Part shown: positions 2,064-54,232 of the stretch, piece after piece
Position numbering within the stretch: position 1 is the first letter of the stretch
Layout of the letters: the number at the start of each line of letters is the position of its first letter
Origin: Labia minor
Lineage: Eukaryota; Arthropoda; Insecta; Dermaptera; Spongiphoridae
Reading direction: 5' to 3'
DNA length: 64,000 bases
Assembly: GCA_963082975.1 (NCBI GenBank)
Contig: OY720345.1
Location: 55,968,528 to 56,032,527 of the forward strand
Position numbers and translations under genes: made by a program
Notes under the pieces: generated by a model
Told to the model about the DNA's origin: nothing
Database searches by the model: none
Seen by the model: only the letters and a program-made list of their open reading frames with translations

Positions 2064-2377
2064 AAAAAGTAAACGCCAGGGCCCCTGGTTGAGCAATCAA
2101 TCAACTTACAGCCACAATTTTTTTAACTTCTATTTCTAAACTTGCAGCCTTTATAGTTTTCTGAATGTGGTAATTTTATAAGTATTGATTTATTAGACTT
2201 AAATTAATATCATCTCACAAAAGTGATATCAGGCTGACCCCAATTCTTAGCCAAAAACAATTTGAAAATAAATGTGCTAAATTATCGACTCTTTTTTAAA
2301 ATAGAATAAATAAAAAAAATTAATTATTCATTTAAAGTTTTCTTAAGTTTTAAGCTATGAATCAATGGATGTGGCTA

Positions 2378-2444
2378 TTTATACATACAGTATGTTGGAT
2401 ATTTATACATAGTGTATGTATACTCAATTGGCAATTTATACATA
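2378..2444. repeat. Subterminal motif array in the MULE-like element
   Basis: TTTATACATA occurs at 2378, 2402 and 2435, each followed within a few bases by TATGT or GTATG. Related TGTATAAA/TATACATA words recur inverted at 4005-4057 by the other end. Iterated subterminal motifs of this sort are typical transposase or accessory-protein binding sites. Which protein binds them is inference. Confidence 0.6.
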
Positions 2445-2598
2445 CCCTATGTATAAGAAATTAGCTATTTGTAGTTACGTTTAACGTACTAACTAACCAA
2501 TAACGTTTTATTTATTTAATGTTTATTGTTACAATATACGTAAAAAGCAAAACAATAAAATAGATAAAGAATTAGACATAAACTGTATACTTAAGTAC

Positions 2599-3561
2599 TT
2601 ATTTTTTATTCCGTGTTTTAATTTGCTTCTTGTAAAACCGAATCTGTTTAGTTTTTTTCTTCGGACGTCCTTTAGACTTAATTTTTGTTTTGAATTTTAA
2701 GTTTTCATTTGATTGATGATTTGTATCGGATTCGTTCTGACTTTCAGTACCAACTAAGCTATGCATGCAACTTCCAGATTCAACTAAGTTACTTGTCTCA
2801 GATTCTATTGAACTAATTGTAGGTCCACTATACTCATTCTCAAACAGAGAAACCCCAATTCTAGCATTTTTTTCAATTAATTTTAGTTCATTCATATATT
2901 TGTTAAAGGTTGTAGTTCCATAATTTGATAAAATATCTTTTGTTATTGTCAGTGCTGTATTGAATTTTTCTCGATCCGATAAAATTTTTTGAAAACCATT
3001 GTCTACATCATTCATGCCTTCATCATGATTTTGGTCCATTTCGGTACATGAAGCAAAAAGTTTGTTTCGAAAATTTTGTATATCCTTTCTTATAAACTGT
3101 TTCCCACTTTTTTTACTTAGAACTGCAGCAACCATTCCATCTTTGGCGCTAGACAAGATTAAATCTGTTGCTGTTTCGTAATCATTTTCATTCATAATTT
3201 TGACTTTTCCGTAATTACTATATTCTTCTTTGCCAACGGTATGATTGTGATTTAGTAATAATTTTGTTAATTTCCATTTTTCATTTTTGCTTTTATAAAA
3301 ATTTATTTGAGCTGGACAATTCTTGTAGTAATAATGTTGATTCGGACGTTTTCCCAGGCATTTTGAATTTTGCTTAATACCATGACAACATTTGTACAGT
3401 ACTTGTTTCTGAGACCGTGTTTTAATAACAAATGGATGATAATGCTCTTTACAAAATACATTAACAGTCTTTGATAACTGTTCATAATCATTAAAATGTT
3501 GACCAACATTTAAAATGTGTTCACTAGCATTGTTGTCATCAACGGACATTTGTTCTGTCAT
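2599..3561 (-). CDS. FAR1/WRKY-GCM1-type zinc-finger protein of a MULE-like transposon
   Basis: A 320-residue intronless frame from an ATG at 3561. Residues ~25-107 form a FAR1/FLYWCH-like DNA-binding domain: a FNDYEQLSKTVNVF start, Cys 58/59, Cys 82 in NCPAQINFY, then KWKLTKLLLNHNH with His 105 and 107 completing the C-C-H-H zinc site. This domain normally forms the N-terminus of MULE transposases and of proteins domesticated from them. The middle (~120-280) is Asn/Ser/Glu-rich without a recognised fold, and no DDE or SWIM motif is present. The C-terminus is strongly basic, with an AT-hook-like core GRPKKKTK (from residue 298). It likely binds the element's repeated ends; a repressor or accessory role is inference. 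AATAAA signals lie on the same strand at 2527-2522 and 2516-2507, 70-90 nt past the stop. Subterminal motifs lie at both ends of the element. Confidence 0.8.
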   Translation of the reverse strand: MTEQMSVDDNNASEHILNVGQHFNDYEQLSKTVNVFCKEHYHPFVIKTRSQKQVLYKCCHGIKQNSKCLGKRPNQHYYYKNCPAQINFYKSKNEKWKLTKLLLNHNHTVGKEEYSNYGKVKIMNENDYETATDLILSSAKDGMVAAVLSKKSGKQFIRKDIQNFRNKLFASCTEMDQNHDEGMNDVDNGFQKILSDREKFNTALTITKDILSNYGTTTFNKYMNELKLIEKNARIGVSLFENEYSGPTISSIESETSNLVESGSCMHSLVGTESQNESDTNHQSNENLKFKTKIKSKGRPKKKTKQIRFYKKQIKTRNKK

Positions 3562-4077
3562 CTAAAAGTGAGGTTAGAATATATATTAGAATAATATAAT
3601 CAATTTAAAAAAATCAGTTAATACCTTGCAACACTAATAGAATAAGTCATTCACAATTTAACACTTCAATTATCTATTCAATGTACATATATATCTATAT
3701 TAGATACTGTTAGGTCGCTTCAAACATATTCTTATTAAAATTAGAAATTTTACACACCCAAAGTTATTCTGGTCGCTTTGTAAACTGAAATTATTAACTA
3801 CGTAGTACTTACTGACTCTTTAAAGTAGTACTACCGCAGACACGGGTTCCTTATTACAGACTGTTTGGAGATTTGCTTTAGTAACTTTTAATATTTTATT
3901 TACCTTATTTATATTCTTATTAAACAAATTGTCATTGGTATCTATTTGAATTGTAAAAATAAACTGTAGTTTAAAATATGGATGCATAAATAGCTAATTT
4001 CATATACATTTTGTATGTATAAATATCCAATTGCGTATACATACTGTTTGTATAAATAGCCACATCCATGAATCAAT

Positions 4078-6909: not shown

Positions 6910-7489
6910 AAGCAAAAATGTGAAAACCGTAGGGAGACAATCCAACATATAATGGCAGGATGCTCAAGTCTTTCTGAAACAGCCTATCTGGGAAGACACA
7001 ACCAATTTGCCAAGATTGTCCACCAACACCTAGGACTAAAACACGGCCCCTATTAGATAGAAAAAAAACTCCACTCTATTATAAATATTCGCCGGCACAG
7101 GTACTAGAAGATGAAAACATCATTATTTATTGGGACAGACCGGTACTGACGGATAGAACTGTCGACTTTAACAGGCCAGATATAATACTCATAAATATAA
7201 AAATAAAAATCGGAATAATAATTGATATCGCGGTTCCTCTAACACACAACCTAAAAAAAACTGAATCCGAAAAACGAAATAAATACGAGGAACTCGCGTA
7301 TCAATTAAAAAATATCTGGAAACTAGAAAAGGTTACCATCCATCGTCTGGTAAAAACGGCAGAAGGGATTGTCTCAAAGAACATCGAAAAAACTATCAAG
7401 GATCTTGACATACCAACCAACATAATCAAAGTAGGGCAAAAGGCCATAATTTTGCAAACCTGCCACATCGTCCGCAAGTTCCTTGGGTA
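6910..7489 (+). pseudogene. LINE restriction-like endonuclease domain (copy 1)
   Basis: The text reads ETIQHIMAGCSSL, then LGRHNQFAKIVHQHL, then, after a stop near 7055, YYKYSPAQVLEDENI, DRPVLTDRT, RPDIILINI, IDIAVPLTHN and KAIILQTCHIVRKFLG ending at a stop. This order (Cys-His knuckle, RPD, IDIAVP, terminal CHIVRKFL) is that of the PD-(D/E)xK endonuclease at the C-terminus of R2-superfamily LINEs, which nicks the target for primed reverse transcription. The first Cys pair of the knuckle is missing because of an internal deletion. In-frame stops and frame changes make it non-functional. Confidence 0.85.
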
Positions 7490-7691
7490 ATTATTATTCC
7501 TACGAGTCCTGTGAGCCAGGGTGAACTCTCTCTTCACATCGTCCGAGCCTAATCCCCCCCCACCAAAAAAAAAGACCAAAAGGGGATAGGTGAAAATTTA
7601 CCAGCCTTAAATGCTGAGTAAGTGCAAAAAATCGAATAATAATAATATACCGTTTAATACGTAAAATTAATAATAATAATAATAATAATTC

Positions 7692-8094: not shown

Positions 8095-8190
8095 AATCAA
8101 CAAACTACAGCCCAACACGAACCAACGGCATCGAGGCAATAACATCGGAAGCCACTCCACTTGCAGGCTCGTCCACTCAAGCTACTAAAG

Positions 8191-8784
8191 ATGACTGCTC
8201 GTAGGGGAGTTCGCAATAAACGTATAAAGTGGACACAAGAGATGAATGCTGACGTTATACGCACATTTTACCGTGTCAATCGTTGCGAAGATAACCCATT
8301 ACCAGGATATAGACATCTCCTTCATACGGAGTTCACGAAACTACACCCAGATTTGGATCTCACCGAACAAAACATCGTTGATAGAAGGAACGTCATCATT
8401 AGAAAATCCTATCTAACAACTAATGATCGGGAAAAAATTCGTCGGGAGGTGGGCTATGAACTACACCATACATCTTTCGAAACCACGTGCGAGGCAAATG
8501 AGCCCCAATCTTTGAGGTGCGTGAGTGTATCGCCAACCCGCACTCAAGAAGAAAAAGACATTGCATCTGCATCAACAAATATGGAGCTCCACGACTCAGC
8601 GAAAGAAAAATTCTACAGCCTTCTTGGATATTATATCGATAGCGAACCATCAAAGAGACCCTCTATCCCAACTTTAAAAAACATAAAACGCGCAAAACCA
8701 TTAATCCTGGCGTTGAATAATATCATGGAGGAATACTTGAGGACCACGCGAAATCTAAACGAAGTACACCTGGCCATATACTGA
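8191..8784 (+). pseudogene. LINE copy 2, N-terminal DNA-binding region of the ORF
   Basis: An open stretch of ~198 codons from the ATG at 8191 (open 10 codons further upstream). It contains KRIKWTQEMNADVIRTFYR, resembling the Myb-like helix in the N-terminal part of R4/Dong/R2 proteins, then DLTEQNIVDRRNVIIR. These N-terminal domains position the protein on target DNA. The coding text continues past 8784 in other frames (PAWKKRLENKINEARAKAD near 8850; FYTNRKKFFRKL near 9080), so the ORF has been broken by frameshifts. RT follows from 9259. Confidence 0.7.
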
Positions 8785-9258: not shown

Positions 9259-10178
9259 GTGGCACCCATGCTGTCTCAAGAATTCTCCACTGAGGATATC
9301 TTCAAGGCCGTGAAAAAGACGAGTAATTGGAAGGCACCTGGCCCGGACAAAATACAAAACTTCTGGGTCAAATATCTCACATCTTGCCATGAGGCTTTGG
9401 CCCGATGCTACACAATCGCGCTAAACCAACCGGAAACATTACCTAGATACCTAACAGAAGGGAATACTTCCCTATTATATAAGAAAGGGAGTATTACAGA
9501 ACCAATGAATTATCGACCGATAACCTGTCTGTCTGTTATGTACAAGTTGTTTACACCTCTGATTAACAATAAGATCTATGAGCACTGTGATGCAAATAAT
9601 TTAAGCGAGGTCTAACAAAAAGGGTGCATGCGCGGAGCGCTAGGATGTAAGCAGTAGCTTACGATCGATGTTATAATATTAAAGCATGCCCAACTTAAAA
9701 AACGCGGCCTACACATTGGGATATCGACTACTCAAAAGCCTTCGACTCTGTGCCGCATGACTGGTTGATAAGAGTGCTAGAAATATACAAGATTCCCCCT
9801 GCTATCATACATTGTCTGCACACCATGATGAAAACGTGGAGAACAAACATTCACATCAACAACAACAACATTGGGAATATAAATATCAAAAGAGGAATTT
9901 TCCAGGGCGACTCTTTGTCTCCAGTATGGTTCTGCCTGGCCTTAAAACCTCTCTCGGTTTTGTTAAAGAAAAAGGATATGGGCTACAAGATCGGGAGAAA
10001 TGATGGAAGATTAACGCACCTTCTATACATGGACGACCTTAAGATCTACGCCGACACCTGTCCAAAGCTGAACTCCTCAATAACAACAGTAAGAAGATTC
10101 AGCGATGATATTTGCATGGCTTTCGGTCTTGACAAATGCTCTGTCATAAACATAAAGAAAGGAAATACTACTAAATAA
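9259..10178 (+). pseudogene. LINE copy 2, reverse transcriptase domain
   Basis: RT landmarks in order: NWKAPGPDKIQNFWVKYL, NYRPITCLSVMYKLF, GCMRGALGCK, DYSKAFDSVPHDWL (motif A), GIFQGDSLSPVWFCLAL (motif B) and LLYMDDLKIYA (motif C, catalytic YxDD as YMDD). The arrangement and wording match R4/Dong-type R2-superfamily LINEs. The domain is split over two frames (9259-9615 and 9750-10178) and the thumb is cut off at 10178, so it is inactive. The catalytic Asp residues themselves are preserved. Confidence 0.88.
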
Positions 10179-52819: not shown

Positions 52820-54232
52820 TGGAGTGTCTCCACTTTAACATATATTATATATTTAAATTAAATTAAATTGATTAAATTATAAATGTTTGGCTCTTTGTTT
52901 ATGGCATCACGTCAAGTGCTGGCGCGTGATGGCAGTCAACGTGTTAGAAAATTAATTAATTAATTAAAAAATTTAAATTTACATTATAGTATTTTTATTA
53001 AATTATATAATTAACATAGGTATATTTAATTTAAATTTAAAACCTTTACCTTCATTTTCAAGTCAAAATTTAAAAAATTAATTCCAGTACTTTCAGCGAT
53101 TCAATCAGGCTGAAATTCTATATATCAGGTCGTCAAGTATGAAATTTGTAGAAAAAAACACAAAGTTTATTGATAACTTACAAACATAAGGAGTTATTCT
53201 AATCATCGAAGTATGCACCCATATTGTCTACACACTTTTGCCATTTAAGTGGGAGGTTATTCAGGCCGTTAGTATAAAACCCTGGTGAACGGGAGTCAAT
53301 GAATTCCTGAAAGGCCAGTTTAACTGCATTATCGGAATTAAACTTTTTTCCTATCAAGAAGTTGTCCAAATTTCGGAAGAAGTGGTAGTCAGTGGGGGCT
53401 TGGTCTGGTGAGTATGGTGGATGATGGAGAAGTTCCTACTCCAATTCCTGTATCTTTGCCACAGTCATTTGTGCAGTGTGTGGTCTAGCGTTATCATGCA
53501 AAAGGATAGGTGTCGATCTATTGACCAATTTGGGCTGTTTTTCTTTAAGTTTTTGCATCATTTCGTCCAGTTGGTTGCAGTATATGTCTGCTGTAATCGA
53601 TGAGCCAGGTTTCATGAACTCATAATGGATTACACCTGCGTGGAACCCACTTATCCAACTTTTTCACCTTCCCGATTTGCGCTAAATGAGTCAATATTGT
53701 TTGTTTGGTAACACCAAACTTTAGTGATAATTCATATACACTTTGGGATGGGTCAGACTCAACGGTGACCTTTAGATCGTCATTATTCACCTTTGATTTC
53801 GGGCAACCGCGAGGCTCATTTGCGAGGTCAAAGTCACTTGTTCGAAATTTAGCGAACCAATTAGATACTGTCTGTTGCGTAGTAACACTAGAGCCAAATA
53901 CAGTATTAATGTTTCGCGTGGCCTGCGACGCCGTATTTTCACGTAAGAACTCATACTTCATAATTGTTCGAATTTCGGACCTTTCCATTTTAAACAAAAT
54001 TGATTTAAAAAAAACCGTTTTACACTTTTTAGGGATTATAATAATTCTTTCAAACAAGCAAGCTGTGTAAATTGACAGAAAAAAAAATAACGGTAAAATA
54101 TTCAAAATAAAAATAATTCAAAATAAAAATAATATAGATATTATACGATTCTATCTATCTATATACATATCAATAAATATTCTTTACTTTATTTCCCCTT
54201 CCAATTCCTGTCATTCACTGTGACGAGATAGT
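52820..54232 (-). mobile_element. HINE-like family A copy carrying a mariner
   Basis: Starts TGGAGTGTCTCCACTTT and ends GACGAGATAGT plus A-run; belongs to the subfamily with the AAGGTAAAGG block. A mariner is inserted at a TA within TTCTATATA at ~53124. The text after the mariner is shortened relative to full-length A. Confidence 0.75.
53125..54070 (-). mobile_element. mariner transposon, internally deleted
   Basis: Left end TCAGGTCGTCAAGTATGAAA next to TA; the right terminal repeat was not found. The transposase N-terminus is open on the minus strand (start MERSEIRTIMKYEFLREN near 53985; HTH text VSNWFAKFRTSDFDLANEP; SVYELSLKFGVTKQTIL; IGKVKKLDKWVP). In another frame it continues as IHYEFMKPGSSITADIY, LLHDNARPHTAQMTVAKIQE, YSPDQAPTDYHFF and IDSRSPGFYTNGLNNLP. 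This is a mariner DD34D enzyme from which ~85 residues between KWVP and IHYEF, holding the first catalytic Asp, are deleted; it is inactive. Confidence 0.9.

Follow-up and report, generated by a model that had tools for sequence, protein, structure and literature searches.

A multi-copy, Foldback-type MULE-like transposon family that carries a FAR1-type finger gene

The window, by which we mean the whole 64,000-nucleotide stretch of Labia minor DNA that was analysed, contains one copy of a young, multi-copy transposon family. Its members share common ends, mostly 9-bp target duplications and palindromic 33-bp units, and the family carries a gene that joins a FAR1-type half to a tail, is also present in a relic and bears signs of constraint. 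We give roughly an even chance to the reading that this is a non-autonomous Foldback-type MULE-like family whose stand-alone FAR1-finger protein recognises the family's own ends, with the DDE activity supplied elsewhere or lost. A first-pass annotation of the window had described a MULE-like element encoding a stand-alone FAR1-type protein without a catalytic core; copy number, 9-bp duplications and Foldback ends all speak for that description, whereas its FAR1 match proved to be sub-threshold.

The element in the window and its ends

The transposon proper, as read from the sequence, occupies positions 2367-4067 of the window (1701 bp) and is bounded by terminal inverted repeats that are identical at 19 of 19 positions, one at the left end, where the gene's 3' end lies (2367-2385, + strand, GGATGTGGCTATTTATACA), and the other at the right end on the gene's 5' side (4049-4067, - strand, placed by alignment of the ends). 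Inverted similarity extends inward at lower identity, over 75 bp at 85% in one alignment and over a longer but gapped stretch in another. A perfect target duplication, ATGAATCAAT (10/10), flanks the element on the left at 2357-2366 and on the right at 4068-4077, with no strand assigned to either copy. In the open reading frame (ORF) listing of the window, an intact 320-codon ORF occupies the minus strand at 2599-3561 and comprises a FAR1-type finger, a helical middle, a variable linker, a helical tail and a basic C-terminus, the helices being of low confidence; among ATG-started ORFs of at least 60 amino acids, the listing gives one other within the element, which overlaps and has 68 aa. The inverted ends of 19 bp, the perfect 10-bp duplication and the intact gene claimed by the first-pass annotation are thus confirmed in the sequence. 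Upstream of the element, at about 1965-2070, there is a microsatellite-linked repeat to which stretches in two fetched loci, L044 and L054, are similar by eye.

Both ends carry arrays of 33-bp units. In the window copy these comprise about three imperfect units on the left (2371-2469, + strand) and about three on the right (3965-4063, - strand), the innermost of which is degenerate, and the limits of both arrays are approximate. Over 71 ends, from which L058 and L059 were also excluded, as they were from the palindrome counts below, each end has 1-6 units when degenerate inner units are counted, and the family therefore has the composite inverted repeats with variable tandem-unit number of Foldback-type elements. 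The terminal unit carries the palindrome TATACATAC-N-GTATGTATA, which is a perfect 9-N-9 palindrome in 52 of the 69 terminal units of fetched copies; each of its nine pairs holds in 62-68 of the 69 ends, and its central base varies more than any other of 45 columns (A40, C24, T3, G2). By motif count, the window has five imperfect sites with at most three mismatches (2380-2398, 2404-2422, 2437-2455, 4003-4021 and 4036-4054, strand unassigned), none perfect and all inside the element, compared with 0.13 on average and at most 1 in 30 first-order simulated windows; as the motif was derived from these same ends, the simulation shows only that the sites are non-background. A palindrome with a free centre would fit a dimeric binder, which we infer from this arrangement, and its conservation may come partly from youth and from concerted change of the repeats.

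A multi-copy family with mostly 9-bp target duplications

Searching the 604-Mb genome with the terminal 19-mer at up to two mismatches returned 336 occurrences against 5 for the reversed control, so the terminal-repeat matches are not due to chance; exact occurrences number 234 (153 A-flanked and 81 others), against 0 for the control. The first-pass annotation had called for a genome search for the same termini and had allowed for a single-copy element, and these 336 near-exact termini show a multi-copy one. Matching pieces number at least 172 by DNA search and at least 129 by protein search of the genome.

Both ends are present in 29 non-redundant fetched loci; 26 of these have a 9-bp duplication, perfect in 23 and with one mismatch in 3. 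The perfect duplications flank the outermost pair of ends in 22 cases and an inner pair in the 23rd (L029). Exceptions are L004 with 8 bp, the window copy, whose 10-bp duplication is atypical for the family, and L053 with none. By comparison, a perfect 9-bp agreement arose once in 55,474 trials with random pairs of flanks from the same loci. Loci that overlapped the window or each other were dropped as duplicates, 13 from the copy-structure count and 14 from the substitution, distance and indel counts described below. All but one of the loci with both ends (28/29) fall within the 8-11 bp range given for MULE target duplications in PMC6446971. This length fits MULEs and also the Rehavkus group, so the two are not separable by it. 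A partner transposase from a Rehavkus-like DDE group, in which duplications are 9 bp and the ends minisatellite, or from a non-MULE superfamily would make MULE-like the wrong label, and we consider such a partner very improbable. Rehavkus is described in PMC6446971 as having a 9-bp target duplication, a minisatellite and a PHD-finger transposase, and Foldback-type ends can house different transposases (PMC3169594). The duplications and repeats of our family fit these features; Pfam found no PHD or transposase match in the 320-aa protein, and its FAR1-type finger argues against such a partner.

The copies vary in structure. Pairing of the 160 exact ends on C1, C2, C4 and C5 (to 54.3 Mb) yielded 48 facing pairs closer than 15 kb and left 64 ends unpaired; the pairs are spaced by less than 700 bp in 24 cases, by 0.7-2.7 kb in 23 and by 11.8 kb in one. 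Some short copies, for example L032, L034 and L055, resemble Foldback elements in that the gene's 3' end occurs at either end, inverted. L048 joins two element-like parts into a 3.6-kb composite, and L022, a larger copy, contains a nested element with a mariner-like ORF.

Two further sequences were seen beside family copies. A dispersed repeat of about 0.5-0.65 kb adjoins several of them (positions 662-1306 of L010, with matching stretches in L002, L014, L029, L032, L042 and L048) and is perhaps a favoured target or a host repeat. In L057, an ORF that is THAP-like by eye (2698-3063, - strand) lies 82 bp from a broken family copy, and may be either a chance neighbour or a P-like remnant.

The FAR1-type protein

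The Pfam FAR1 profile (PF03101) matches residues 52-109 of the whole protein (3235-3408, - strand) with 22 bits and an E value of 2.8e-4, and reaches 25.7 bits (E 1.9e-5) against residues 1-129; the best score among the copies is 27.8 bits, at the L010 place. The curated cut-off is 28.1 bits, so the FAR1 finger named in the first-pass annotation is a sub-threshold match by profile score, and it stands in its C-C-H-H residues, which are conserved: in an alignment of 10 copies C58/C59, C82 and H105 are nearly invariant and H107 is invariant. We take these residues to be the metal ligands of the finger. Residues 1-129 also match DUF2521, ZSWIM3_N, AFT and YmzC at E 0.026-0.096, of which ZSWIM3_N and AFT are presumably related zinc-finger families and DUF2521 and YmzC are probably chance matches. 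A model of the N-terminal region has one helix and four strands over residues 26-103, with block mean pLDDT values of 72-86 over residues 21-60 and 81-100 and 61.2 overall; a fold search with the FAR1-region model gave no match at E 0.001 or better, and the best match of a PDB sequence search (E 0.029) was taken as chance.

The full-length fold has a mean pLDDT of 39.5, so that its secondary structure alone was used, and it predicts the remainder of the protein to be helical with low confidence. By eye, we take residues 126-175 (3037-3186, - strand) to resemble the segment between FAR1 and DDE of MULE transposases; residues 101-175, which include this segment, had no Pfam match. Of the three shared indel sites found most often, two lie in the variable linker that follows (residues 176-190; 2992-3036, - strand). 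Near the C-terminus, KGRPKKK (residues 297-303; 2653-2673, - strand) is what we take by eye to be an AT-hook-like motif, and L010 differs from the window copy at this site.

Search for a transposase

No DDE domain was matched by Pfam in the 320-aa protein, in agreement with the earlier claim that it has no DDE core. At E 1 or better, MULE DDE domains match in the genome at 17 places by PF10551 and at 18 by PF21056, 15 of which are also PF10551 places. FAR1-profile matches at E 0.1 or better comprise 12 listed places, all of which belong to this family, and none of the 12 adjoins a listed PF10551 or PF21056 place. For 9 of the 17 PF10551 places, the nearest exact terminus is at least 115 kb away; the other 8, at C5:72855997, C5:68183930, C9:59763895, C10:19063770, C10:19072497, C36:6497, C62:7420 and C69:9723, were partly compared with the exact termini, of which the A-flanked list runs up to C5:54.27M. 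The longer relative with FAR1 fused to DDE that the first-pass annotation had proposed to look for was thus not found among the 12 FAR1-profile matches and the DDE places, which were read in part. As no DDE gene was found with these ends, we call the family MULE-like and not proven MULE.

Used as a query, residues 1-175 returned 60 matches at E values up to 10; besides clear family copies these include an older relic, a few weak stop-bearing matches and one pair of long frames. The pair, at C5:10466712 and C5:10487379, had been candidates for long FAR1-headed genes (886 and 889 aa in open frame; 29% identity at E 0.82); the former was rejected as a chance match, since the 351 bases examined there (L058) read by eye as a ubiquitin-hydrolase domain. 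Among the weak stop-bearing matches to the FAR1 half, those at C4:51232249-51232452 (+), C1:48927184 (-) and C4:37609020 (+), with 36-39% identity, are perhaps still older relatives. The 11.8-kb interval between termini at C1:41810053 was not taken for an autonomous copy, as the part of it in L031 contains an ORF that is LTR/envelope-like by eye. A possible 4.8-kb interval at C2:1731273-1736112 was seen in part (L002), and a transposase could lie in its left 1.7 kb. FLYWCH has a single match in the genome, located away from the family; PF20700 had none in a search run without a positive control; and in viral contigs six stretches fitted a pattern, none of which was confirmed as a relative.

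Separately, seven of the PF10551 places score equally, at 48.6 bits, and their open frames span 489-674 aa (C2:10057457, C2:10087846, C5:53843449, C5:72855997, C10:19063770, C10:19072497 and C62:7420), which suggests that they belong to a MULE family active in the recent past. None of our family's exact termini lies near C2:10057457, C2:10087846 or C5:53843449.

An older relic with the same gene layout

The older relic, L059, has a FAR1-side part at C1:45618429-45618726 and a tail at C1:45618112-45618363, with 66 bp between them. Its 626 bases align with codons 86-247 of the window ORF, leaving no room for a DDE domain between the halves. It carries many stops, part of the finger is missing and its other end lies outside the stretch seen. 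Some 500 bp 5' of the relic's extrapolated start there is an exact terminus; in the window copy this distance is 506 bp. Since the relic has the same layout of FAR1 half and tail, this layout predates the recent burst.

The relic bears on the main rival explanation, in which the gene is an ancient internal-deletion derivative, KP-like or FRF-like, of a FAR1-DDE-tail transposase that lost its DDE domain at the linker and whose remaining head and tail compete or repress. FAR1 is present in MULE transposases of plants, some fungi and oomycetes and a parabasalid (PMC6446971), plant FRF1-4 contain FAR1 only and are proposed competitors of full-length proteins (PMC6000157), and 17 arthropod MULE types with intact ends have truncated transposases of 236-295 aa (PMC13359780); the linker between the FAR1 half and the helical tail is also rich in indels. 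By contrast, the relic already has the FAR1-tail layout, apart from FAR1 no known MULE part was matched by either half, and the genome yielded no gene with both FAR1 and DDE, the DDE places having been read in part. We judge this derivation unlikely, while treating it as the strongest competitor to a protein that recognises its own ends. The relic also carries the same gene near the same terminus, which argues against capture of a host FAR1-domain gene as Pack-MULE-like cargo, as does the finding of no FAR1-profile match outside the family at E 0.1 or better in the genome. MULEs tend to pick up fragments of host genes (PMC6446971) and FHY3-type genes have been reported in some animals including arthropods (PMC10027918); we nonetheless hold capture to be highly improbable here.

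Selection on the open reading frame

We compared substitutions in the ORF across copies, using for each locus the pieces on the strand of its longest match in the substitution, distance and indel counts, and skipping sites covered by fewer than 6 copies for private changes and distances and by fewer than 8 for fixed differences and indels. Private changes in the other copies comprise 222 nonsynonymous and 64 synonymous, which matches the opportunity of 2970:870 and indicates that these copies decay neutrally. By contrast, the 15 differences fixed between the window copy and the majority (at least 70% of the others) comprise 7 nonsynonymous and 8 synonymous (binomial p 0.009), and differ from the 227:65 ratio of private changes with the window's own included (Fisher p 0.011). 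Comparing the window with L010 alone gave 9 synonymous to 23 nonsynonymous changes, no significant synonymous excess (p 0.29), and variants common to at least 3 copies (4 synonymous, 25 nonsynonymous), many of them in the badly aligned linker, are like the private ones.

Indels were counted with the last 30 bases of the ORF excluded, including the site at codon 319 where a 4-5-bp insertion alters the last residues in 22 of 32 copies. The three commonest shared sites have lengths of 9, 12 and 9 bp, which keep the frame and count among the signs of constraint, and occur in about 11, 9 and 23 copies, respectively. Four rarer shared indels of 5, 1, 1 and 1 bp, in 3-5 copies each, break the frame, and 21 of the 64 private indels are multiples of 3.

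The relic provides a second comparison. Its mismatches with the window copy are synonymous in 40 of 110 cases, a share of 0.364 against 0.228 expected. Read in the remaining five frames, the sequences give synonymous shares of 0.118-0.309, where 0.208-0.261 would be expected. The 40 of 110 differs from the private changes of the copies (Fisher p 0.007), and using L010 in place of the window gave 37:75 (p 0.008). By codon position the mismatches number 38, 23 and 49, and here the comparison with private changes gave p 0.15.

Overall, the evidence for past selection on the ORF in the source lineage is moderate, and the tests rest on small numbers, 15 fixed differences and one relic. The substitution counts of the copies give no sign of a current need for the ORF in most of them. 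The dN/dS comparison suggested by the first-pass annotation thus has a divided outcome, with neutral decay among the copies (222:64) and signs of constraint in the lineage (7:8 in the window, 40 of 110 in the relic); the annotation had offered selection or youth to account for the intact ORF, and it seems to be both, past selection, on evidence from small numbers, together with relative youth. These signs of past constraint stand against a neutral relic, in which the ORF is intact through the youth of the copy alone and the protein has no present role. Consistent with such a relic, only two near-full-length stop-free copies are among the matches listed, the window copy and L010, and the latter, with a frame of 332 aa, has no second terminus within the stretch fetched, which leaves the window copy alone among the fetched loci in having an intact ORF and both ends. 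The window copy is also 1.8% from the family majority, typical of a range of 0.4-4.9% across copies, and both the neutral ratio of the other copies and the comparison with L010 point the same way. We regard this explanation as improbable.

Comparison with known systems and a candidate mechanism

The reading that we favour, a protein recognising the family's own ends, would work as follows. The FAR1 protein would bind the terminal palindromes, probably as a dimer, and this binding may help the family's ends to be used through recognition, transcription or anti-silencing. Cutting and joining would fall to a DDE transposase that is unlinked or lost, its action in trans being an assumption, as no transposase was found with the family's ends. 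In the rival view of a competing deletion derivative, the comparison is with the KP repressor of P elements, which retains the DNA-binding head, moves by means of a full copy and has the same ends as full P elements. Here, by contrast, no full copy was found.

Structurally, the closest systems are Tm1 (PMC3169594) and Phantom (PMC6446971), both of which have a MULE transposase. Tm1, a Mutator/Foldback element of root-knot nematodes, is like our family in its composite ends of variable tandem repeats, in its duplications of 8-10 and mostly 9 bp and in having MITE-like copies beside coding ones; its repeat unit, however, is 13-15 bp as opposed to 33 bp, and its coding element joins FLYWCH and a MULE DDE in one 496-aa protein, whereas ours has a FAR1-type finger and no DDE (PMC3169594). 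Phantom MULEs share duplications of 8-10 bp and arthropod or other animal hosts, and have a minisatellite in aphid members and a FLYWCH finger in some; they encode a MULE transposase, while our protein has neither a transposase nor a FLYWCH match. Some Phantoms do not have FLYWCH, and the transposase is their firm feature (PMC6446971). In the available portion of its main text, PMC13359780 on arthropod MULEs contains no mention of FAR1, FLYWCH or foldback.

Functionally, VANC of the Arabidopsis VANDAL MULEs is the nearest documented working analogue (PMC5735166): it is a MULE-encoded DNA-binding protein apart from the transposase, and its target motifs are often tandem repeats in the element's non-coding DNA, to which our palindromic repeats are comparable. 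VANC, however, is encoded beside the VANA transposase and has DUF1985/DUF287, whereas our protein is FAR1-type and its element is without a transposase. Anti-silencing of the VANC type, in which sequence-specific binding of the repeats goes with a loss of silencing marks, would be one candidate role here. According to PMC6446971, mudrB/mutB of MuDR/Mutyl are likewise second, non-transposase MULE genes, with a DNA-binding role given to mutB, and unlike our gene they adjoin the transposase gene. Plant FRF1-FRF4, as described in PMC6000157, resemble our protein in having a FAR1 domain without a transposase core or SWIM, and are host genes, while our FAR1-type gene sits in a mobile element. No FAR1-only animal transposon was described in the titles or abstract openings that we searched in the open-access literature.

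We tentatively put forward the further possibility, more doubtful than the general reading, that this is a split animal transposon, in which the element conserves its own dimeric FAR1 subunit for end recognition and the catalytic subunit is encoded elsewhere. If so, two genetic elements that are not linked would share the work, one supplying recognition and the other catalysis. Loss of coding capacity is the usual expectation for non-autonomous elements, and here is one that keeps a non-catalytic DNA-binding gene with signs of constraint. The family could accordingly serve as a test case for how transposon parasites secure a transposase, be it by recognition, repression or anti-silencing, and the 9-N-9 palindrome in its 33-bp terminal unit is a ready candidate binding site. 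It is also a plausible mobile-element stage on the way toward FAR1-only host regulators.

Other features of the window

Elsewhere in the window, open stretches on the plus strand at 6978-7490, 8143-8784 and 9699-10178 resemble, by eye, broken pieces of non-LTR retroelements, and the last of these contains the reverse-transcriptase-like SKAFDSVPHDWL. On the minus strand, an ORF at 53620-54117 has, by eye, a Mariner/SETMAR-like helix-turn-helix.
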